From positions 372,001-436,000 of the forward strand of contig NZ_AP018725.1 of assembly GCF_003967195.1 (NCBI RefSeq): a stretch of 64,000 bases of DNA, given 5' to 3'. Position 1 is the stretch's first letter. Each line of letters begins with the position of its first letter. The DNA is from Sulfuriflexus mobilis. GTDB taxonomy: Bacteria > Pseudomonadota > Gammaproteobacteria > AKS1. The translations under genes were made by a program, and so were the position numbers. Shown here one piece after another: positions 5,247 to 39,222 of the stretch. The notes under the pieces are model-generated. The model made no database searches and had not been told where the DNA came from. It saw only the letters and a program-made list of their open reading frames with translations.

Positions 5247-5408
5247 ATTGATGATGCCCTGAACCTTCGGGGCGAAGGTTAGGGTACTCGCAATGAACCC
5301 GCAGGGTTCTGCGAGAGCATGGTGGCAGCCTTGCACATTCGCGCATAGAAGCCTTTGGCTTCATTATGCGTACCTCACCCATCTCCGATGGGTCGAGGCA
5401 TCATCAAT
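5247..5408. repeat. Structured intergenic element with 12-bp terminal inverted repeats
   Basis: The element occupies the whole gap between the convergent djlA and CopD-like genes. Its ends are a perfect 12-base inverted repeat (5247-5258, ATTGATGATGCC; 5397-5408). Inside are four hairpins arranged in mirror order: 5257-5284, 5287-5315, 5342-5370 and 5373-5398. These are two copies, in opposite orientation, of the two-hairpin repeat also found near 20.2, 23.6 and 33.1 kb. The right end includes the first base of the neighbouring stop codon. It could act as a bidirectional terminator or mRNA stabiliser; that is inference. Confidence 0.8.
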
Positions 5409-19796: not shown

Positions 19797-19905
19797 TCCA
19801 CCAGCGAATACCCCTCTGTTGGGGACAAACACTCTAGCATTCCTCCACGAATAGTAGAGTTCCAGGTGGTACAGGCGCGATTCTTCACCGGATCGCGCCT
19901 TTTTT
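19797..19905 (+). ncRNA. Candidate sRNA 1 with CCTCC in an apical loop
   Basis: About 108 bases ending in an intrinsic terminator (19873-19905). Predicted structure: CCACC near 19799 pairs with GGTGG at 19866-19870, enclosing a CCCC/GGGG hairpin and a hairpin with arms ACTCTA and TAGAGT plus inner ATT/AAT, whose loop displays CCTCC. Such loops can pair with Shine-Dalgarno sequences. No coding frame of note. The boundaries are inferred from the promoter and terminator only. Confidence 0.5.
19873..19905 (+). terminator. Intrinsic terminator of sRNA candidate 1
   Basis: Arms AGGCGCGAT (19873-19881) and ATCGCGCCT (19892-19900) form a perfect 9-bp GC-rich stem followed by six T residues. No protein gene ends just upstream, which implies a non-coding transcript. 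Confidence 0.85.
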
Positions 19906-19992
19906 ATTGCCTAATAACCCATTAGATAACAATTGCTTATGCCGCGCCTGGCAGATAGCCGTAAGATTATCGCTACAGCCTGTTAATTAGAG

Positions 19993-20021
19993 TTGACTAA
20001 TATACTAATGCTTAGTAGAAT
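19993..20021 (+). promoter_or_regulatory. Sigma-70 promoter of second sRNA candidate
   Basis: TTGACT (19993-19998), a 17-base spacer, and TAGAAT (20016-20021) each match consensus at five of six positions. The expected start is near 20028, and an intrinsic terminator follows about 115 bases later. Confidence 0.75.
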
Positions 20022-20027
20022 TTATTC

Positions 20028-20143
20028 CACTTCAGATTGTTGTGCCTACCTCCTCCAGTGCACGCAACCTGAAACGATCCTCCTCCACCTCCCAAATGGT
20101 GGCTTATAAGGCGCGGCAGCCCAATATGCCGCGCCTTTTTTTT
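20028..20143 (+). ncRNA. Candidate sRNA 2 with repeated CCTCCTCC motifs
   Basis: About 116 bases from a good promoter to a strong terminator. A 5' hairpin (outer arms TTCAG and CTGAA, inner arms GTGC and GCAC) exposes CCTCCTCC in its loop. A single-stranded linker repeats CCTCCTCC. A small CCACC/GGTGG hairpin then carries TCCC in its loop, before the terminator. This layout is like C-rich-loop regulatory RNAs of proteobacteria such as sX13 or the CcsR group, which act through anti-Shine-Dalgarno pairing. Homology to those was not tested. Confidence 0.65.
20108..20143 (+). terminator. Intrinsic terminator of sRNA candidate 2
   Basis: Arms 20108-20118 and 20127-20137 form an 11-bp stem (AAGGCGCGGCA and its complement) around an 8-base loop, with eight T residues at 20136-20143. 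Confidence 0.9.
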
Positions 20144-20460
20144 GCCTCGAACCATCGGAGATGGTTGAGGTACGGATAATGACCAGAACCTGCGGAGCAG
20201 GTGCAGGAAATCCCTAATGAAGCTCGTAGAGATTCTTGGGGGAAGCCCACAGGTAGCTCATAGAAGCTTTTCAAGCTTCATCATGAGTACCCTACTCCTC
20301 CGGAGTCAGGGCATCTGTGAGTGGTGAATCAGGCAGCCTAAGAAGCCTGCATGAACGTAGAAGCTACAAGCCCCACGGATATCGGAGATGGGCAGGATCC
20401 CAATAAAGAAGCCTAAAAGGCTCTTATGAACGCCTCGACCCTATAAGTACGGTGAGTTAG
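20144..20460. repeat. Array of hairpin repeats before rplM
   Basis: Starts immediately after the sRNA terminator. A reverse-orientation B hairpin lies at 20145-20170, followed by a degenerate A hairpin. A forward pair follows: A at 20257-20287 and B at 20290-20311. A third, less regular module (about 20317-20390, GAGTGGTGAA ... CATCGGAGATGGG-like) follows. The 20251-20390 segment is closely similar to 23738-23865 downstream of the porin gene and partly to 23578-23660. Confidence 0.8.
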
Positions 20461-20619
20461 GAATATAAGCTTCTAGGGCAAAAGCTACAGGAGGAGGGGC
20501 TGTGAGGCCCCATGAGGAGACCAAAAAGAGGCCGTTTTCCTCTTGTATCCTGCCGCCGACTCGAGTAATATTCCGCCTCTTTGCAAGACACTACCCTATT
20601 TACGTGGAGCAATACTGAA

Positions 20620-21048
20620 ATGAAAACGTTCAGTGCAAAACCGGCTGAAGTGAAGCGCGACTGGTTTGTCATCGATGCCGAGGGCAAGACCCTGGGCCGT
20701 ATGGCGACCGAAATCGCCCGCCGCCTGCGCGGTAAGCATAAAGCTATTTATACACCGCACGTGGATACCGGCGACTACATCGTGGTCATCAATGCCGAGA
20801 AGGTCCGTGTGACAGGAAGAAAGTCTACCGACAAGCTGTATCATCATCATACAGGTTACATTGGTGGTCTGAAGACAATCAGCTTCGACAAGCTGTTAAA
20901 GAAGGCTCCAGAGCGCATTATCGAAACCGCAGTGAAAGGTATGCTGCCGAAGAATGCACTGGGCCGTGCAATGTTCCGCAAGCTGAAGGTTTATGCGGGC
21001 GGTCAACACCAGCATGCGGCGCAACAGCCAATGCCGCTGGAACTCTAA
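20620..21048 (+). CDS. rplM: 50S ribosomal protein L13
   Basis: A 142-residue large-subunit protein, the same length as E. coli L13. It begins [20 protein letters not shown] and contains the L13 signature [15 protein letters not shown] near the C-terminus. The ATG at 20620 has GGAG about 10 bases upstream; the frame is open further upstream but the family start is clear. It precedes rpsI by 19 bases, the standard L13-S9 operon. Confidence 0.98.
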
Positions 21049-21067
21049 AAGTCGTAGGTTAAAGAAC

Positions 21068-21457
21068 ATGTCAGACGTTTATTACAGCACCGGTCGTCGC
21101 AAGTCATCAACAGCTCGCGTATATATGACCGCAGGTGAAGGCAACATCACCATCAACAATCGTGGTATCGATAACTACTTTGGTCGTGAAACCTCACGCA
21201 TGGTAGTTCGCCAGCCACTCGAACTGACCGAGATGATCGGCAAGTTCGATATCAAGGTTAACGTCAAGGGTGGCGGTAACACTGGTCAGGCAGGCGCGAT
21301 TCGTCACGGTATTACCCGTGCGCTCATGAAGTACGACGAAGCACTGCGCAAGTCATTGCGTAAGGCCGGTTTCGTCACACGTGATTCACGTGAGGTTGAG
21401 CGTAAGAAGGTTGGTCTGCACAAGGCCCGTAAGCGTCCGCAGTACTCGAAGCGTTAA
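21068..21457 (+). CDS. rpsI: 30S ribosomal protein S9
   Basis: A 129-residue small-subunit protein. The N-terminal [16 protein letters not shown], the central [19 protein letters not shown] and the basic tail ending KKRPQYSKR-like (here RKRPQYSKR) are typical; the tail reaches the tRNA anticodon in the P site. ATG 21068 follows a short GTTAAAGAA spacer with no strong ribosome site, fitting translational coupling to rplM. Confidence 0.98.
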
Positions 21458-21504
21458 TTGCGTTCGCGGCCATTATGCGCCGCACGCCGTTTACCGACTT
21501 CTTT

Positions 21505-21578
21505 TGGGGAATCGTCTAACGGCAGGACAACGGACTCTGACTCCGTCAATCAAGGTTCAAATCCTTGTTCCCCAGCCA
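21505..21578 (+). tRNA. tRNA-Gln (anticodon CTG), CCA encoded
   Basis: A 74-base cloverleaf with acceptor arms TGGGGAA (21505-21511) and TTCCCCA (21568-21574), discriminator G and an encoded CCA. The anticodon stem ACGGA/TCCGT encloses the loop CTCTGAC, giving anticodon CTG (reads CAG). The T arm contains GGTTCAAATCC. It follows rpsI by 47 bases. Its last eight bases also form part of a long perfect hairpin with downstream sequence. Confidence 0.95.
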
Positions 21579-21627
21579 ATAAACAACAAAGCCCGCCCAG
21601 TGCGGGCTTTGTTGTTTATTGGCTGGG
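21571..21627 (+). terminator. 26-bp perfect hairpin spanning tRNA 3' end and terminator
   Basis: Arms 21571-21596 and 21602-21627 are exact reverse complements around the loop CCAGT. The inner part (AAAGCCCGC with GCGGGCTTT, then a T-rich tail) is an ordinary intrinsic terminator. The outer part pairs with the CCCAGCCA 3' end of the tRNA-Gln gene, which would compete with the acceptor stem if not processed. Confidence 0.85.
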
Positions 21628-21639
21628 ATATACGCTATG

Positions 21640-21900
21640 GCCACATAGCTAATCCGATACGTCCATGTTTATACTTGTTGTCGGATTCACATCAAAACCC
21701 CTGCGGGTTTCTCCCTGGAATCTCTTCGAGCTCCATCAAGGATTCCCCGCACTTGCTTCGCATGTTCTGGTTATCAGGCACTTTCTACGCTTCACTTAGA
21801 ATCTCTAAGAGATTCATTAAGTACTTACTAAACTTGCTATCGCAGGTTCTGGTCGCGCTACGGTCACGTCGTTTCTCTTCCAGTCCGGCCTAGTTGCCAA
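21640..21900. repeat. Hairpin-rich intergenic repeat region before the porin gene
   Basis: No gene is seen between tRNA-Gln and the porin (21579-22276). This part contains one A-type hairpin (21794-21822; outer arms ACTT and AAGT) followed by ACTTACTAAACTTGCT, almost the same as 24822-24866, where a different stem sequence sits in the same framework. Other short hairpins occur at 21696-21712. Confidence 0.65.
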
Positions 21901-21919
21901 ACAAGCATATCCAGGAAAA

Positions 21920-21993
21920 GTAGGGTGCGCTTTGCGCACCATCTGAGTCACGAGACTTTTCACGCCCCCCTTGGTGCGCAAAGCGCACCCTAC
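21920..21993. repeat. 74-bp element with perfect 21-bp terminal inverted repeats
   Basis: Arms 21920-21940 and 21973-21993 are exact reverse complements, built on GTAGGGTGCGC and GCGCACC; each arm is itself partly palindromic. The core is 32 bases. It looks like a short non-autonomous mobile or fold-back repeat. No target duplication could be assigned with confidence. Confidence 0.75.
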
Positions 21994-22276
21994 TGCGAAC
22001 CTGATTGAATACGTCGTGTTAGCGCTAATCCAACCAAGGGGAGAAATGGGATGGGGCACGATTGTGAAAAAACAAGCTATCCTATTGATATTTATTAGCT
22101 TTCTCATTTTTTATTCTTGGATGTGATCATCCACTCTGCTAATGTGTTGCTTATTCACAACAAGTCAGTGGGCCTGTTGTTTTTTTTACGAAAAAATGTT
22201 GCACAAACCCCGAAACTTGGCTATTGTTAGCCGGTCGATTGACTTATAAACAAAATAGTATTTTTAGGAGAAACCT

Positions 22277-23464
22277 ATGAATAAGAAATTCCTCGCAATT
22301 GCAGTTGCCGCCGCGCTGGCACCGGCCGCTGCTTCTGCAGACGTCAAGCTGTACGGTATCGCACAGGTTGAATACAACATTGAAGATTCAGACGCTAGCG
22401 GTCAAGACAGCGTACAGTCTGTTGATGACGATGGTGTTCGTTCACGCATCGGTGTCAAGTTCACTGAAAAGCTGGGTGGTGGTCTGACTGCCTTCGGTAA
22501 GTTTGAATGGGCACTGGATCCAGCTGATGACCAAGACTCAGCTTCAAGTGGTAATACGCAAGGTTTACGCGGACGTGACCAATTCGTCGGTATCAAGGGT
22601 AGCTGGGGTTCACTCTCAGCCGGTGCACACCATGCGCCATACAAGACCGCTGGTGGTGTTAAGTGGGATCCATGGACCGCGACTCACCTGCAGGCCCGTC
22701 GTGCCGGTGGTATGCTCGGTGGTACCGGTATCGGTGGCCAGAATGGCTTCATGCGTAACAGCATTTACTACACCTCACCAGAAGTAAACGGCTTCCAGTT
22801 CAAGTTTGCGATTTCGCCTGACGAAACCAATCCAGGTGCCAACAATGGCGACGTGGGTAATTCTGACGATGGTGATAACGACTACTCTATTGCCGTTCAT
22901 TACACGAACGGTCCGTGGGAAGCGATCTTCGCGCATAACCGTAACAACCAGGCAACACGCAGAAGCACCAGTGTAATTAACGTTGCTACAACGACTACAG
23001 TTGGTACTACAGTCATTACTGGTACGTTCCCGATTACGGTTACGGCTACAAGCAACGTTGATGACGAAACACTGACCAAGGTTGGTCTGCGTTGGAAGTC
23101 AGGTCCTTGGACTCTGGCCGGTCAGTACGAAACTGTAGATGATGCACTGGCCGCTGCTGGTGGCACAACCCCAGGTGTTGCTGGTAACTACCGCCCAGGT
23201 GTTGGTGATGATGCCGATGTTTACTGGTTGAACGGTCAGTACAAGGCCGGTAACAACATTTTCAGCCTGTCATACGGTAATATGGATGTTGATCCAGACG
23301 GTACTGCGAGAGACTTCGAGTACGATTACTGGGCAGTGGGCGTGATCCACAAGTTCAGCAAGCAGACTCGCATCTTCGGTGGTTACACACAGACCGATGG
23401 TGACAAAAACGGTAATGCAAATGACCGTGATGCCTGGACTGTTGGTATCCGCAAGGACTTCTAA
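22277..23464 (+). CDS. Gram-negative trimeric porin
   Basis: A 395-residue outer-membrane channel protein. A typical signal peptide (cleavage after AAASA, about residue 21) is followed by DVKLYGIAQVEYNIE, alternating beta strands, GLTAFGKFEW, LRGRDQFVGIKGSWGSLSAGAH and a C-terminal strand ending in phenylalanine (IRKDF), required for BAM-assisted insertion. It forms a general diffusion pore for small solutes. Residues about 230-260 hold a Thr/Val-rich loop that is probably surface exposed. AGGAG precedes the ATG. A strong terminator follows. Confidence 0.92.
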   Translation: MNKKFLAIAVAAALAPAAASADVKLYGIAQVEYNIEDSDASGQDSVQSVDDDGVRSRIGVKFTEKLGGGLTAFGKFEWALDPADDQDSASSGNTQGLRGRDQFVGIKGSWGSLSAGAHHAPYKTAGGVKWDPWTATHLQARRAGGMLGGTGIGGQNGFMRNSIYYTSPEVNGFQFKFAISPDETNPGANNGDVGNSDDGDNDYSIAVHYTNGPWEAIFAHNRNNQATRRSTSVINVATTTTVGTTVITGTFPITVTATSNVDDETLTKVGLRWKSGPWTLAGQYETVDDALAAAGGTTPGVAGNYRPGVGDDADVYWLNGQYKAGNNIFSLSYGNMDVDPDGTARDFEYDYWAVGVIHKFSKQTRIFGGYTQTDGDKNGNANDRDAWTVGIRKDF

Positions 23465-23492
23465 GATTAGTTAATAATCTTATTGTCTAGAG

Positions 23493-23521
23493 ACGGGGTG
23501 CTTCGGCACCCCGTTTTTTTT
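23493..23521 (+). terminator. Intrinsic terminator of the porin gene
   Basis: A 9-bp stem ACGGGGTGC (23493-23501) with its complement (23506-23514), a TTCG tetraloop, and a run of eight T residues. Confidence 0.95.
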
Positions 23522-23870
23522 GCCTTGAGCCATTGGAAATGGCTAAGGTACTCATGATGAAGCCTGAAAGGCTTCTATGAGTGGTGAAATTAGCAGCCTA
23601 GGAAGCTTACATGAACGTATGAACCTTAAACCCCACGGACATCGGAGATGGGTAGGGTACTCATAATTGCCTCGACCCATTGGAAATGGGTGAGGTATCC
23701 ATAATGAACCTGAAAGGTTCTATGGTGTAACCCTGAAAGTGGCTCATAGAAGCTTTTTCAAGCTTCATCATGAGTGCCCTACTTCTCCGGAGTCAGGGTA
23801 TCTATGAGTGGTGAATTTGTAAGCCTAGAAAGTTTATAAATACGCAGAAATTGTAAGCCCCACTTACTAC
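23522..23870. repeat. Array of two-hairpin repeats downstream of the porin gene
   Basis: Two reverse-orientation pairs (B 23523-23548 with A 23551-23581; B 23670-23695 with A 23699-23725) are followed by a forward pair (A 23743-23774 with B 23777-23798). Stems differ between copies but stay complementary, while the GGA/TCC triloops, the single unpaired base and the short linker are constant. Further GAGTGGTGAA-type modules follow each array. Confidence 0.85.
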
Positions 23871-23889
23871 CCCAGTTATTTTGAAGAAC

Positions 23890-23919
23890 AAAAAAGCCGA
23901 GCAAATGCCCGGCTTTTTT
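23890..23919. terminator. Bidirectional terminator downstream of rpiA
   Basis: A hairpin with GCCG/CGGC core, an internal mismatch and loop AAAT is flanked by A and T runs on both sides. On the minus strand it ends the rpiA transcript 20 bases after its stop. Confidence 0.8.
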
Positions 23920-23939
23920 ATTGATAGATGATTTGCAGC

Positions 23940-24602
23940 TTAAGGCAGAATCGTTTTAGCCCCCTCCGGCGTGCCCAAAATCAGCACATCGGCCGGGCGG
24001 GCGGCGAACAGGCCATTGGTGACCACACCGACAATGCTGTTGAGCTCGTTTTCCAGTTTCACGGGTTCCATGATTTGCAGGTCACGGATATCGAGGATGA
24101 CATTGCCGTTATCGGTGGTAAAACCTTCGCGCAGCACGGGGGTGCCACCGGTGCGCTTGAGGATCTCGCGGGCGACATAACTGCGGGCCATGGGGATGAC
24201 TTCCACGGGCAGCGGGAAGTCTCCGAGGATGTCGACCAGCTTGGACTCGTCGGCGATACAGACAAACTTCTTACTGGCGGCGGCAACGATCTTTTCCCGG
24301 GTCAGGGCGCCACCACCACCCTTGATCAGGTGCAGGTACTTGTTGGATTCATCGGCACCGTCTACATACAGGGAGAGCTCACCGGCCTCGTTGAGGTCGA
24401 GGACGCGAATGCCGTGACCGCGTAGGCGCTCTGCAGAGGCCTCAGAGCTGGCTACGGTGGCATCGACCTTGCCTTTGATGCCAGCCAGCAGATCGATGAA
24501 GTGGTTGGCCGTGGAGCCGGTACCAATACCGACGATCATGCCGGTATCTACATACTCGATAGCGGCCTCGGCGGCGGCCCTTTTCATTTCGTCCTGGTTC
24601 AT
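23940..24602 (-). CDS. rpiA: Ribose-5-phosphate isomerase A
   Basis: A 220-residue enzyme converting ribose-5-phosphate to ribulose-5-phosphate. Visible signatures are [13 protein letters not shown] (phosphate loop), [40 protein letters not shown] (active-site Asp, Lys and Glu) and [12 protein letters not shown] 24602 has GAGGTGAG upstream and begins the conserved helix; the longer frame has no support. With rpe it covers the non-oxidative pentose phosphate branch. Confidence 0.97.
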
Positions 24603-25044
24603 GTTTCTCACCTCATCAAAATCAGACCGCAAACGATACCGAAAAAATGGCATTTTTGCCAGATTTCAGTCTTTGTTGAGATCGAGTAAATAACGCAGAG
24701 ATCGCCAAGGCGCAGAGGTCGCGGAGAAAGAAATAAAAAGATATCGATTTATGCATATTATTTTGGGAAGTGTTTAGCCGGAATCCAACGAGCTAGTTTG
24801 GCGTACTGGATTCTGGCCTACACTTAGATCATCTTCGATGATCATCAAGTACTTACTGAACCTTGCTCTGGTCGCGGCAGAATGACGGCAGCATAAATAT
24901 TTAGAAAATCTTTGCGTCCTCTGCGCCTTTGCGGTCTTTGCGTCAAATATCGAGAATAAGATGGCCGTCATAGCTGATTTTTACACTGGCTTATCATTCA
25001 TCAATTTATTTTCTTCGTGCCACTTATTCTAGTATCTTGTGCAC
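24603..25044. other. Gap between divergent rpiA and ilvA, filled by a nested repeat element
   Basis: No gene is seen. The gap contains a fold-back element (24688-24949) with a different repeat (24778-24900) in its centre, then about 90 AT-rich bases that must hold the ilvA promoter. Confidence 0.75.
24688..24949. repeat. Fold-back element with CGCAGAGG-type arms and a nested repeat
   Basis: Left arm about 24691-24725 and right arm about 24911-24947 are imperfect inverted repeats built on ACGCAGAG, GGCGCAGAGG and GCAAAG. The interior contains an A-type hairpin (24822-24850, arms ACTT/AAGT, inner GATCATC) and GGATTC/GAATCC sequences like those near 33.2 kb. Looks like a non-autonomous element into which another repeat has settled. 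Confidence 0.7.
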
Positions 25045-26565
25045 ATGCTTAATGATTACGAAAAACGTATCAAGGCGGCCTGTGCGGTTGTCTACGACGT
25101 CGCCAGACGAACGCCTCTGGATGCGGCGCCCGGCCTGTCTGAGGCCCTGAATAATGAAATACTCCTCAAGCGTGAGGACCTGCAGCCGGTGTTTTCTTTC
25201 AAACTGCGAGGTGCCTATAACCGAATAGCGCAACTGAGCGAGGAAGAGCAGGCCAGGGGGGTGATCACCGCCTCGGCGGGCAATCATGCCCAGGGAGTGG
25301 CCCTGGCGGCCCAGCGCCGGGGTATCAAGGCCATGATTGTCATGCCGAAGACCACGCCACGCATCAAGGTGCAGGCCGTGCGTAAGCTCGGTGCCGAGGT
25401 GGTCTTGCATGGTAATACCTATGACGACGCCAGTGCCCATGCCCGGACGCTGGTTGAACAGACAGGCGCGGTTTATATCCATCCCTATGATGACCCCGAT
25501 GTGATTGCTGGGCAGGCGACGGTCGCGGTAGAACTGCTTGAGCAACACCCGGAAAGGATTGATGCAGTATTTATCCCCGTCGGTGGCGGTGGCCTTATTG
25601 CCGGCATGGCGGCCTGGATTAAACAACATCGCCCGGAGATAAAGGTGATTGGTGTCGAACCGGATGATGCCGCCTGCCTGTATGTTGCCCTCGAGGCCGG
25701 TGAGCGCATCACTTTGCCACATATTGGTATCTTTGCCGATGGTGTGGCCGTGCGCCAGGTGGGTGAGGAGCCTTTTCGTGTCGTCCGTGACCTCATCGAC
25801 GAGGTGGTATTGGTGAGCACCGATGAGATCTGTGCGGCGATCATGGATATCTATGACGATACCCGGGCCATTACCGAACCGGCCGGTGCCCTGGCCGTGG
25901 CGGGCATTAAGAAATATGTCGCCCGCGAGGGCCTGCAGGGAGCCTGCCTGGTTGCCGTTAACAGCGGTGCCAATATGAATTTTGATCGCCTGCGCCATGT
26001 TGCCGAGCGCGCCGAGATCGGTGAACAGCGTGAGGCCTTGCTTGCCGTGACGATCCCGGAGCGACCGGGCAGCTTCCGGGAGTTCTGTAAAACCATTGGT
26101 GAACGAGGGATTACCGAGTTCAATTATCGCTACTCTGATGCTAGCGAGGCGCATGTTTTCGTCGGTGTGCAGCTCAATGGTTCGGCTGAGAGAGAGGAAC
26201 TCATCGCAAAGCTGAAGGGACGTGACTACCCCGTTGTAGACATGACCGATAATGAAATGGCGAAGATACATGTTCGCTATATGGTCGGCGGCCATAGTGC
26301 CGCGATGGTCGACCACGAGCAGTTGTATCGTTTCGAGTTTCCGGAGCGGCCGGGGGCGCTGCTGCGTTTCCTGAAGCATATGGGCCAGGGCTGGAACATC
26401 AGCCTGTTTCATTACCGTAACCACGGTGCGGCTTATGGACGTGTGCTGGTGGGGATACAGGTGCCACCGGCTGAGCAGGGGCGTTTTCAGGCCTTTTTGG
26501 ATGAAGTGGGCTATCCCTACTGGGCGGAACAGGATAATCCGGCCTACCAATTATTCCTCAGTTAA
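25045..26565 (+). CDS. ilvA: Threonine ammonia-lyase, biosynthetic
   Basis: A 506-residue PLP enzyme that deaminates threonine to 2-oxobutanoate, the first step of isoleucine synthesis. The PLP lysine is in FSFKLRGAYNRI (about residue 56), SAGNHAQGVAL binds substrate, and the phosphate loop is VGGGGLIAG. Two ACT-like regulatory domains occupy about residues 330-506 and normally confer isoleucine feedback. ATG 25045 is used; an in-frame GTG at 25039 is possible, and no ribosome site distinguishes them. Length matches the E. coli IlvA class. Confidence 0.95.
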   Translation: MLNDYEKRIKAACAVVYDVARRTPLDAAPGLSEALNNEILLKREDLQPVFSFKLRGAYNRIAQLSEEEQARGVITASAGNHAQGVALAAQRRGIKAMIVMPKTTPRIKVQAVRKLGAEVVLHGNTYDDASAHARTLVEQTGAVYIHPYDDPDVIAGQATVAVELLEQHPERIDAVFIPVGGGGLIAGMAAWIKQHRPEIKVIGVEPDDAACLYVALEAGERITLPHIGIFADGVAVRQVGEEPFRVVRDLIDEVVLVSTDEICAAIMDIYDDTRAITEPAGALAVAGIKKYVAREGLQGACLVAVNSGANMNFDRLRHVAERAEIGEQREALLAVTIPERPGSFREFCKTIGERGITEFNYRYSDASEAHVFVGVQLNGSAEREELIAKLKGRDYPVVDMTDNEMAKIHVRYMVGGHSAAMVDHEQLYRFEFPERPGALLRFLKHMGQGWNISLFHYRNHGAAYGRVLVGIQVPPAEQGRFQAFLDEVGYPYWAEQDNPAYQLFLS

Positions 26566-26607
26566 CCTCGTTGTGTTTGTCGCCTGAAAACAACAGGCTA
26601 CGGAGAT

Positions 26608-26635
26608 AAAAAAAGGCCCGCATTGCGGGCCTTTT
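26608..26635. terminator. Bidirectional terminator between ilvA and the H1-like gene
   Basis: Perfect 11-bp stem AAAAGGCCCGC (26611-26621) and its complement around ATT, with A and T runs on either side, placed between two convergent genes. Confidence 0.9.
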
Positions 26636-26657: not shown

Positions 26658-27059
26658 TTATCTTTTCTTAGTCTTTTTCTTGGCCTTTTTCTTACTGGCC
26701 TTCTTCTTCGTCTTCTTCTTGGCTACTTTCTTCTTAGCCTTTTTCTTAGTGGCCTTCTTTTTGGTTTTCTTCTTGGCTACTTTCTTCTTAGCCTTTTTCT
26801 TGGCCTTCTTTTTGGTTTTCTTCTTAGCTACTTTCTTCTTGGCCTTTTTCTTAGCGGCCTTTTTCTTGGTCTTCTTCTTAGCTACTTTCTTCTTAGCCTT
26901 TTTCTTGGTGGCTTTTTTCTTAGCAGCCTTCTTCTTGGTCTTCTTCTTAGCTACCTTCTTCTTGGCAGCTTTTTTCTTTGTTGCCTTCTTGGCTACGCGT
27001 TTCTTCGTAACCTTCTTCTTTGCAGTTTTTTTCTTACTGGCTCTTTTCTTGGTCGCCAT
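26658..27059 (-). CDS. Lysine-rich histone-H1-like protein
   Basis: A 133-residue protein composed almost only of lysine, alanine, threonine and a few valine, arginine and serine residues, in repeated Lys-Lys-x-Ala/Thr-Lys-Lys-Lys units such as KKVAKKKTKKK. This is the composition of bacterial histone-H1-like proteins (AlgP, Hc1/Hc2 tails, BpH1), which bind and compact DNA and can regulate transcription. There is no globular domain. The DNA is internally repetitive, so copy number may vary between strains. Ribosome site AGGA(A)-like sequence (minus strand GGAGGAATG) lies just upstream. Exact role is unknown. Confidence 0.8.
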   Translation of the reverse strand: MATKKRASKKKTAKKKVTKKRVAKKATKKKAAKKKVAKKKTKKKAAKKKATKKKAKKKVAKKKTKKKAAKKKAKKKVAKKKTKKKAKKKAKKKVAKKKTKKKATKKKAKKKVAKKKTKKKASKKKAKKKTKKR

Positions 27060-28983: not shown

Positions 28984-29174
28984 AAGACATCCTCCGCCTG
29001 TGCCGTTGCGTTCCGTTGTCCTTGAACCAGTGGTTCAAGTGGGGAAAGGGGACAGGACATCAGGCTTTCCGCCAGCAGCGGACTTGCACACAATCCTGAC
29101 ACAGTTCTCCCCGGGAGGTAATACTAGGCTCAAGAAAATACCGGGTCTGCTATCGAACACTGCAGAGGATGCCT
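28984..29174 (-). ncRNA. ssrS: 6S RNA
   Basis: A regulatory RNA that binds sigma-70 RNA polymerase in stationary phase by mimicking an open promoter. It lies between zapA and fau, its conserved place. The ends pair (CATCCTC at the 5' end near 29171 with GAGGATG at the 3' end near 28989). The internal hairpin ACTTGAACCACTGGTTCAAG matches the E. coli 6S hairpin near the same point, followed by a GC-rich closing strand. Length about 190 bases agrees with E. coli (184). The exact ends are inferred. Confidence 0.88.
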
Positions 29175-33055: not shown

Positions 33056-33170
33056 AAAAGCCCAACGCAGAGACGCTGGCCCAATAGAACCGCTTTACGG
33101 TTCATTATGGGTACCCTAACCATCGTTCCGATGGTTCAGGGCAAGGCGCAGGGAACGCAAAGGTAATAAC
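33056..33170. repeat. Hairpin pair set inside a CGCAGAGG-type repeat arm
   Basis: Between ubiH and ubiI. An A hairpin (33081-33110) and a B hairpin (33114-33141) are flanked by ACGCAGAGACGC and AGGCGCAGGGAACGCAAAGG, which together read as one arm of the fold-back family split by the hairpin pair. This suggests nested insertion. Confidence 0.7.
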
Positions 33171-34486: not shown

Positions 34487-34498
34487 CTTAAATCTAGT

Positions 34499-34813
34499 AA
34501 GTAACGCAAAGGTCGCAGAGGCGCAGAGGTAGTAATAATTGTTATCACTGCTGTTCCGTTGGCATAGCCGTAATACTTCATAAGTCCTTAATTCAGTTAG
34601 CGCCGGCCTATTCAATAGTCGGAGTTATTCCTTCTCCCTGAGGGAGAAGGCTAGGATGAGGGGGATGGTAAATAATGGCTTATACGGTATACCCCCTCAC
34701 CCCAACCCTCTCCCAGAGGGAGAGGGGGCTATTGGGACAGCAGTGCACAATTATAGATCTTTTTATTTTTGAATATCTCGGCGGTCTCTGCGTCTTTGCG
34801 ACCTTTGCGTTTA
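34499..34813. repeat. Fold-back element with nested CCCTCTCCC-type palindromes
   Basis: Fills most of the 357-base gap between ubiI and the antiporter gene; no gene is seen. Left arm 34501-34530 (ACGCAAAGGTCGCAGAGG) and right arm 34780-34813 (complement type) form the outer inverted repeat. Inside, 34630-34735 holds two facing copies of a CTCCCTGAGGGAG / CTCTCCCAGAGGGAGAG palindromic repeat with CCCCTCACCCC segments. Confidence 0.7.
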
Positions 34814-34843
34814 TTACCGGGAATAAAAAAAGGAGCAACCTGA

Positions 34844-38942: not shown

Positions 38943-39003
38943 TCCGGTATTGGGAGTCGATCCCTGACCCTGATATAGGGTATAGTCCGCTTGCAACAAA
39001 TGC

Positions 39004-39180
39004 TCTTGTGGGAGAGGTTTTGTGTCTGTGCAGAGAACCACAGGCAGGAAACGCCGAAGGCGCAACATCCACCCGGAAACGCTCAGGCAAAAGGACCGCA
39101 GGAGAGACGTTGTCTCTGGAGAGCGATCGTGTCGATCCACCGAAGGGGCTCAAGCTCTCAGGTTCAGGACAGAGGGGTGG
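39004..39180 (+). promoter_or_regulatory. Tandem glycine riboswitch upstream of gcvT
   Basis: Two glycine aptamers in series. The first spans about 39004-39108 (GGAGAGG, ACGCCGAAGGCGCAA, CTCAGGCAAAAGGACCGCAG). The second spans about 39109-39180 (GGAGAGCG, CACCGAAGGGGC, CTCAGGTTCAGGACAGAGGG). The last P1 strand overlaps the left arm of a strong terminator. This layout is typical of an ON switch that lets gcv genes be expressed when glycine is plentiful. A TATAGT -10 box lies at 38981-38986. Confidence 0.92.
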
Positions 39181-39222
39181 CGAATAACCATATCAGTAAG
39201 GTTATTCGCCACCCTTTTTTTT
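39175..39222 (+). terminator. Riboswitch expression-platform terminator
   Basis: Perfect 15-bp stem (39175-39189 with 39200-39214) and eight T residues. Its 5' arm shares GGGG with the closing helix of aptamer 2, so glycine binding would oppose terminator formation. Confidence 0.92.

Follow-up and report, generated by a model that had tools for sequence, protein, structure and literature searches.

The 64,000-nt window analysed here is the whole stretch from position 372001 to position 436000 of the single-contig, 3.11 Mb genome of Sulfuriflexus mobilis (G000:C1:372001-436000), and positions below are those of the window unless stated otherwise. In a region that passes rplM, rpsI, tRNA-Gln, a porin gene and rpiA, it carries a dispersed repeat built from two unlike hairpins, of which an earlier note on this DNA had listed about ten copies sharing one plan.

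On one strand the unit reads hairpin A, the dinucleotide TA and hairpin B, in fixed order, and its length is mostly 53-62 nt. Hairpin A consists of an outer stem of approximately 5 bp, an internal loop in which A stands opposite ATT or ATC, and an inner stem of approximately 5-7 bp. Hairpin B consists of a 4 bp outer stem and an inner stem of 3-8 bp, with one bulged C. Across 118 unique copies from S. mobilis and other genomes, four features are fixed or nearly so: the A opposite AT[T/C], the TACC that begins the linker and hairpin B, the basal A-T pair of the inner stem of B, and the unpaired C of B. The observation in the earlier note is confirmed. Loops and linker are common to copies genome-wide; the TCC triloop, common in the window, is not universal. 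Folded as single-stranded DNA, the seven full copies of the window outperform their dinucleotide shuffles (z -3.3 to -7.2); for the copy at 23743, one of 200 dinucleotide shuffles folded equally well, and in the copy at 33081 the outer A stem lies outside the minimum-energy fold.

A covariance model (R1) was built from five window copies, which match it by construction, and was run against the window by cmsearch with filters off. Nine of the ten listed places were recovered at E<0.001, that at 21794 weakly, while 24822-24850 gave no match at E<=1, though a hairpin is visible there. Four of the listed copies (5257, 20145, 23523 and 23670) are on the minus strand, so that the plus strand reads B'-TA-A'. 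The copies and related features are the following:

5257-5315, minus strand: full two-hairpin copy, reading A-TA-B on the minus strand; R1 74.5 bits, DNA fold z -6.5
5342-5398, plus strand: full two-hairpin copy; R1 82.2 bits, DNA fold z -7.2
20145-20194, minus strand: copy with hairpin B intact and hairpin A decayed; R1 40.5 bits; its B end abuts the terminator T-tract at 20136-20143
20257-20311, plus strand: full copy with a short B; R1 56.0 bits; GTAG directly before it
21794-21822, plus strand: stand-alone relative of hairpin A, no B; R1 22.8 bits, E=0.0008 over 21793-21853
23523-23581, minus strand: full copy; R1 76.7 bits; its B end adjoins the T-tract of the terminator that follows the porin gene
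23670-23726, minus strand: full copy, of nested type by eye; R1 75.5 bits; flanked by GGGTTAC and CAATTATGAG
23743-23798, plus strand: full copy with a TG linker; R1 47.4 bits; GTGG before it
24822-24850, plus strand: stand-alone hairpin resembling A, seen in the sequence, without a model match
33081-33141, plus strand: full two-hairpin copy; R1 72.5 bits
48120-48144, plus strand: one half of hairpin B, found as part of an inverted pair and next to the A/T tract of a terminator; probable remnant
23465-23939: gap between the porin gene and rpiA, with three repeat copies and no gene for a REP-associated tyrosine transposase (RAYT; REP, repetitive extragenic palindrome); three congeners have such a gene there

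The stand-alone hairpins (21794-21853 and 24822-24860) read ACTTAGA..TCATnAAGT followed by ACTTACTnAAC, and look like another, related repeat family.

Extending the model search to the whole genome and to relatives, as the earlier note had proposed, gave 82 S. mobilis matches at E<=0.001 within the stretches fetched (the window and 35 stretches around matches, one of which, L087, was taken for a Y1 gene) and 93 at E<=1 genome-wide. The genome search scored 150 of 442 candidates, so that the copy number is a lower bound, and model E-values are rough owing to a short calibration. Full-length copies, defined as those of >=50 nt, number 76 of the 82. By crude gene calls picked from open reading frames, 73 of the 82 copies are intergenic, though 80% of those loci is coding. 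Both orientations relative to genes occur. The copies form 47 clusters, of which 12 lie in convergent and five in divergent gaps, against 31 convergent and 38 divergent among all 174 gaps of the same loci. Clusters are denser toward the origin, with 32 of 47 inside the 40% of the contig that surrounds dnaA (p ~1e-4); the contig begins with dnaA and dnaN, and GC skew, taken from the window and 20 further stretches, changes sign between 1.45 and 1.6 Mb.

Among the closest genomes, all four of the genus carry the repeat and none of 33 other class members does at E<=0.001, with up to 150 candidates scored per genome. A wider draw of the class, searched with stricter filters, gave matches at E<=1e-6 in 19 of 370 genomes, four being the genus and 15 falling among the 366 others. 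A sequence pattern applied to an 84,980-species collection returned 88 stretches, from Thiohalobacter thiocyanaticus Hrh1, Thiohalophilus thiocyanatoxydans, a Thiogranum metagenome-assembled genome (MAG) and further MAGs among others, and the model found matches in 16 of the 17 pattern-positive genomes searched, the exception being a record labelled Euryarchaeota.

Covariation was assessed in the style of R-scape with our own script, in which the null came from simulation along a FastTree tree that kept the number of changes in each column; 25 and 40 null simulations were used, so that small E-values are coarse. The alignment joined 69 of the 82 S. mobilis copies (those of >=40 bits and 50-63 nt; 62 unique) to 72 of 80 rows from other genomes (56 unique), the 80 rows being the outcome of a search of 73 of the 88 loci. 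The eight remaining rows (L129, L169, the second rows of L161 and L170, both rows of L136, and the two weakest, L122 at 6260 and L131) were left out by no rule. In rank order, the first nine of 1378 column pairs are all predicted stem pairs (E<=0.04) and the tenth is an extension of the inner A stem; the other stem pairs are nearly invariant and hence uninformative. Because these copies had been located with a structural model, a second test used copies found by the sequence pattern, comprising 63 unique sequences from 90 matches in other genomes, congeners included, once duplicates and contig-edge matches had been dropped. At two of the covarying positions the pattern admits only C or T on one side, and it places no limit on the remainder. 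Here too, stem pairs take the first six ranks among 1770 pairs (E<=0.075). The stems thus covary as the earlier note had described, above the phylogenetic expectation simulated by our script, and the structure of the unit is under constraint.

Over 19 stem pairs in 118 copies we counted 2034 Watson-Crick cells, 15 G.T, 32 A.C and 115 other mismatches. Columns 39-62 are C-G in 76 copies, T-A in 39 and mismatched in three, and in columns 43-57 all four Watson-Crick types occur, with mismatches in three of the 118. Pairs 9-25 and 42-63, however, covary largely through mismatched types (T.C and C.T), so that not every covarying pair stays Watson-Crick.

Among 31 pairs of neighbours within 250 bp, 20 are head-to-tail (six of them the tandem array), eight have their A ends facing and three their B ends. 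At G000:C1:2378439-2379236 (L073 3040-3837), a 112-bp unit with one two-hairpin copy per unit is repeated 7.1 times in tandem at 99%. Eight of the 76 full-length copies sit within a second copy's hairpin A, and the script patterns recognised both of their junctions; three more fit the nesting pattern by its left part only, and the copy at genome position 395670 (window 23670) is of similar type but was missed by the script pattern. The nesting site is the 3' foot of the host copy's inner hairpin, ...GGGTT-AC[copy]CA-ATTATGAG-TACC..., and the copy at genome position 2802065 is doubly nested. Six of 76 end directly at an A run, the complement of a terminator T-tract, always by the B end, whereas a like A run occurs at 0.43% of intergenic positions (p ~1e-6). 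In the congeners the T-tract junction is seen in five of 13 copies examined (13 of the 15 loci L088-L102), and there the copies share a longer tail on the A side, with CACCA, GGTTGG, GTGGG and GCTGTC. One copy in the congener G001 directly follows a terminator whose orthologues in the window (near 26546-26608) and in the congener G003 have none, and the site corresponding to a second G001 copy is empty in G003. A GAGATTGC...GCAATGACG palindrome encloses the two-hairpin unit in Thiohalobacter, Thiogranum, NAT125 and MAG27; we read this palindrome as CGTC-type from the description in PMC3733652.

These observations point to a short non-autonomous mobile DNA element of the kind represented by REPs and bacterial interspersed mosaic elements (BIMEs), here a bipartite and mostly untagged unit, and we assign this reading a probability of roughly 0.6. 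Our best-supported guess at the mechanism is single-strand processing of the HUH/Y1 type driven by a RAYT, with placement at hairpins. A RAYT-family transposase (HUH/Y1) would recognise the hairpins in single-stranded DNA, and copies would come to lie at other DNA hairpins, for example terminators and hairpin A of other copies. The least certain step is the agent, which may be the RAYT that the congeners encode between the porin gene and rpiA and that S. mobilis would since have lost. The class of element, the nesting and the transposase locus all go beyond the earlier note.

Anatomy and behaviour are those of REPs and BIMEs; the two-hairpin, mostly untagged unit is not. GTAG REPs and BIMEs, as characterized in PMC3733652, are likewise short palindromes, intergenic, clustered, alternating or tandem, with stems that carry alternative complementary residues, and the present repeat shares their many, mostly extragenic copies. 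It also clusters as BIMEs do, and alternating orientation is present but not the rule. A GTAG REP consists of one hairpin, 20-40 bp long, that may have one bulge, whereas here two unlike hairpins are joined by TA. Moreover, GT[A/G]G stands directly 5' of seven of the 76 full copies in S. mobilis, and those seven look like one subfamily. For CGTC REPs the likeness is the presumed CGTC-type palindrome that encloses the unit in four genomes, and the difference is that none of the 76 full S. mobilis copies has CGTC at most 2 nt from its 5' end or GACG as near its 3' end. As the GTAG tag is mostly and the CGTC tag wholly lacking at these copies, we file the repeat under neither type. Precedents for a repeat inside another palindrome are A. 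variabilis GTAG-15 and H. neapolitanus CGTC-1, described as REPs inserted in other palindromes in PMC3733652; here, in contrast, the host palindrome can be a copy of the same repeat.

Each of the three congeners examined (G001, G002 and G003) has one RAYT gene in the porin-rpiA gap. The protein (168-170 aa) carries the HUH and Tyr motifs (HIH, Y...NP), scores 158-166 bits against an NCBIfam cutoff of 80, and aligns with E. coli TnpA-REP (PDB 4ER8) over most of its length at E=1e-36, so that it resembles RAYT/TnpA-REP (PMC6006769) in being full-length, above cutoff and syntenic. No close copy of it was found in S. mobilis, and the search of 23401-24000 for a remnant gave nothing convincing (best protein E 0.088, best DNA E 0.13). 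Where the congener protein differs is in the residues W94, Q95 and R104 of 4ER8, which PMC6006769 ties to the reading of GTAG; the RAYT of a REPtron, flanked by its own REPs, would be expected to keep them. These are L, E and E in G001 and G003, and W, E and S in G002; Q95 and R104 are thus changed in all three (Q95E, R104E/S) and W94 in two. Among other RAYTs, W94-Q95 is kept in 18 of 18 and R104 in 13 of 18, in a comparison that left out the divergent L001 and L103 and in which L215, L216, L218, L284 and L285 gave no motif match. The changed residues fit a repeat that mostly lacks the tag.

Several observations weigh against this explanation and against the assignment of the repeat to the congener RAYT. 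As to the flanking that marks a REPtron, copies lie within 1.5 kb of the RAYT gene in G003 only, where two (62.8 bits, and 17.3 bits with E=0.03) stand on one side of it; G001 and G002 have none within that distance, the nearest in G001 being 2.6 kb away, and 11 RAYT-like loci of other genomes (L209-L219) have no copy alongside. By coordinates, Thiogranum has one copy 0.6 kb from a RAYT-family gene and G049 one copy 1.7 kb from a below-cutoff member of the family. Close relatives of the congener RAYT (E<=1e-8) occur in eight of 17 other genomes, and eight of the nine without them bear the repeat. They are absent from Thiohalobacter thiocyanaticus (16 copies), Thiogranum (25 copies) and HyVt-414 (16 copies), and the genome with the most copies among those searched has no RAYT of the congener kind. 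The association at genome level was assessed on 20 genomes that bear the repeat and on 28 of the 33 repeat-free ones. RAYT-family genes at E<=1e-5 are present in 19 of the former and 15 of the latter (p=0.003), and genes above the family cutoff in 14 and 13, respectively (p=0.14), a weak association in which kinship is ignored in both counts. Ordinary W-Q RAYTs also exist in repeat-bearing genomes. The copies favour neither replication strand (19+/13- in one half of the contig and 20+/18- in the other; 70 copies, with the tandem array collapsed), and the empty-site comparisons are not clean insertions, as the flank also differs at the terminator site. As another candidate mobiliser we considered a 284-aa Y1 protein of S. 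mobilis (L001), which we rejected; it exceeds the RAYT cutoff by 1.8 bits, and its 9-kb locus L087 has no repeat copy.

The earlier note took covarying stems to imply either selection on structure or a process that rewrites both arms together. The covariation is present, and the data separate neither reading from the other. Selection might act on RNA if the copies were cis-acting elements in 3' regions, serving as stabilisers, second terminators or protein-binding hairpins, and the position of some copies just downstream of terminators, together with the lean of clusters toward convergent gaps (12/47), is consistent with this. RNA selection on the A-B strand, however, would favour G.T over A.C. 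As G.T is no commoner than A.C, a structure formed in DNA is no less likely than one formed in RNA. On the read-through transcript strand A.C becomes G.U, the type that is twice as common (32 versus 15), and this excess could reflect RNA on the opposite strand, or nothing, related copies being counted repeatedly. Copies also occur in both orientations relative to genes, no Rfam family reaches its threshold at the window copies (with relaxed thresholds, all matches in 19900-25000 other than tRNA stayed below those of their families), and nested, tandem and inverted copies, with presence and absence at orthologous terminators, look like mobile DNA. We consider an RNA element unlikely.

Rewriting of the arms could occur if DNA polymerase switched templates within a hairpin and copied one arm onto the other, with no selection on structure. 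The double changes with few intermediates at columns 39-62 and 43-57 are what such a process should leave, but it should also erase three features that persist across genera, namely the A/ATT internal loop, the T.C mismatch in the inner A stem and the bulged C, and it accounts for neither dispersal nor target preference; on balance it is quite unlikely. It is likewise unlikely that the unit is the end of a conventional insertion sequence (IS) or a miniature inverted-repeat transposable element of a DDE transposase. The longer associated units (unit C, below, and the congener tail) would suit such an origin, as would one junction pair that suggests a 4-5 bp duplication (ACTT). That duplication, however, is seen at a single site, and the examined copies show no long terminal inverted repeats or IS, DDE transposases not having been searched for.

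If the unit is a mobile DNA element of the REP/BIME kind, it may, more tentatively, represent a separate REP-like class: a bipartite two-hairpin unit with no tetranucleotide tag, served by a RAYT lineage without GTAG reading, and targeted to hairpins (terminators, its own hairpin A and CGTC palindromes), which would give rise to nesting. We regard this as possible but distinctly doubtful. The repeat does not appear in titles and abstracts on RAYT/REP nesting and insertion, REP insertion at terminators or Thiohalobacter palindromes, and its core strings are absent from the paper texts searched; that it is not in print holds within those searches.

A second repeat, unit C (GTGGTGAA...CCCCAC), adjoins two-hairpin copies at several places:

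20310-20406, plus strand: unit C, 97 nt; 77% identical to 23570-23666
23570-23666, plus strand: second copy of unit C, from the repeat-family listing
341647-341846, 1020658-1020739 and 2997353-2997437 (genome positions): further unit C sites in S. mobilis

The HEARO/IscB-associated RNA (RF02033), tried because of unit C, gave no match in the S. mobilis genome, and control genomes were equally silent. Between rpiA and the RAYT gene of G003 (L107 1060-1198) lies an inverted pair resembling CGTC-type palindromes (CGTCATTACGAACAACGTGAAACAATCTC), which is of interest because CGTC palindromes are said, in the abstract of PMC3733652, to "apparently lack a dedicated transposase". Elsewhere in the window, 24681-24943 and 34492-34830 hold dispersed repeats resembling ACGCAAAGGTCGCAGAGGCGCAGAG, and parts of the latter match many other places in the genome. 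On the minus strand, 26658-27059 encodes a small protein made almost entirely of lysine, alanine, threonine and valine repeats, histone-H1-like by eye, whose DNA carries a 12/15-nt periodic repeat. Two adjacent glycine riboswitch aptamers (38999-39182) and 6S RNA (28987-29171) are ordinary.

REPs are abundant, but little is known about their recognition and placement by RAYTs. A repeat with visible nesting and terminator junctions, and with a changed RAYT in sister species, offers concrete substrates and target sites. It further shows clean covariation where DNA is a likelier basis than RNA, a warning for RNA discovery by covariation alone.

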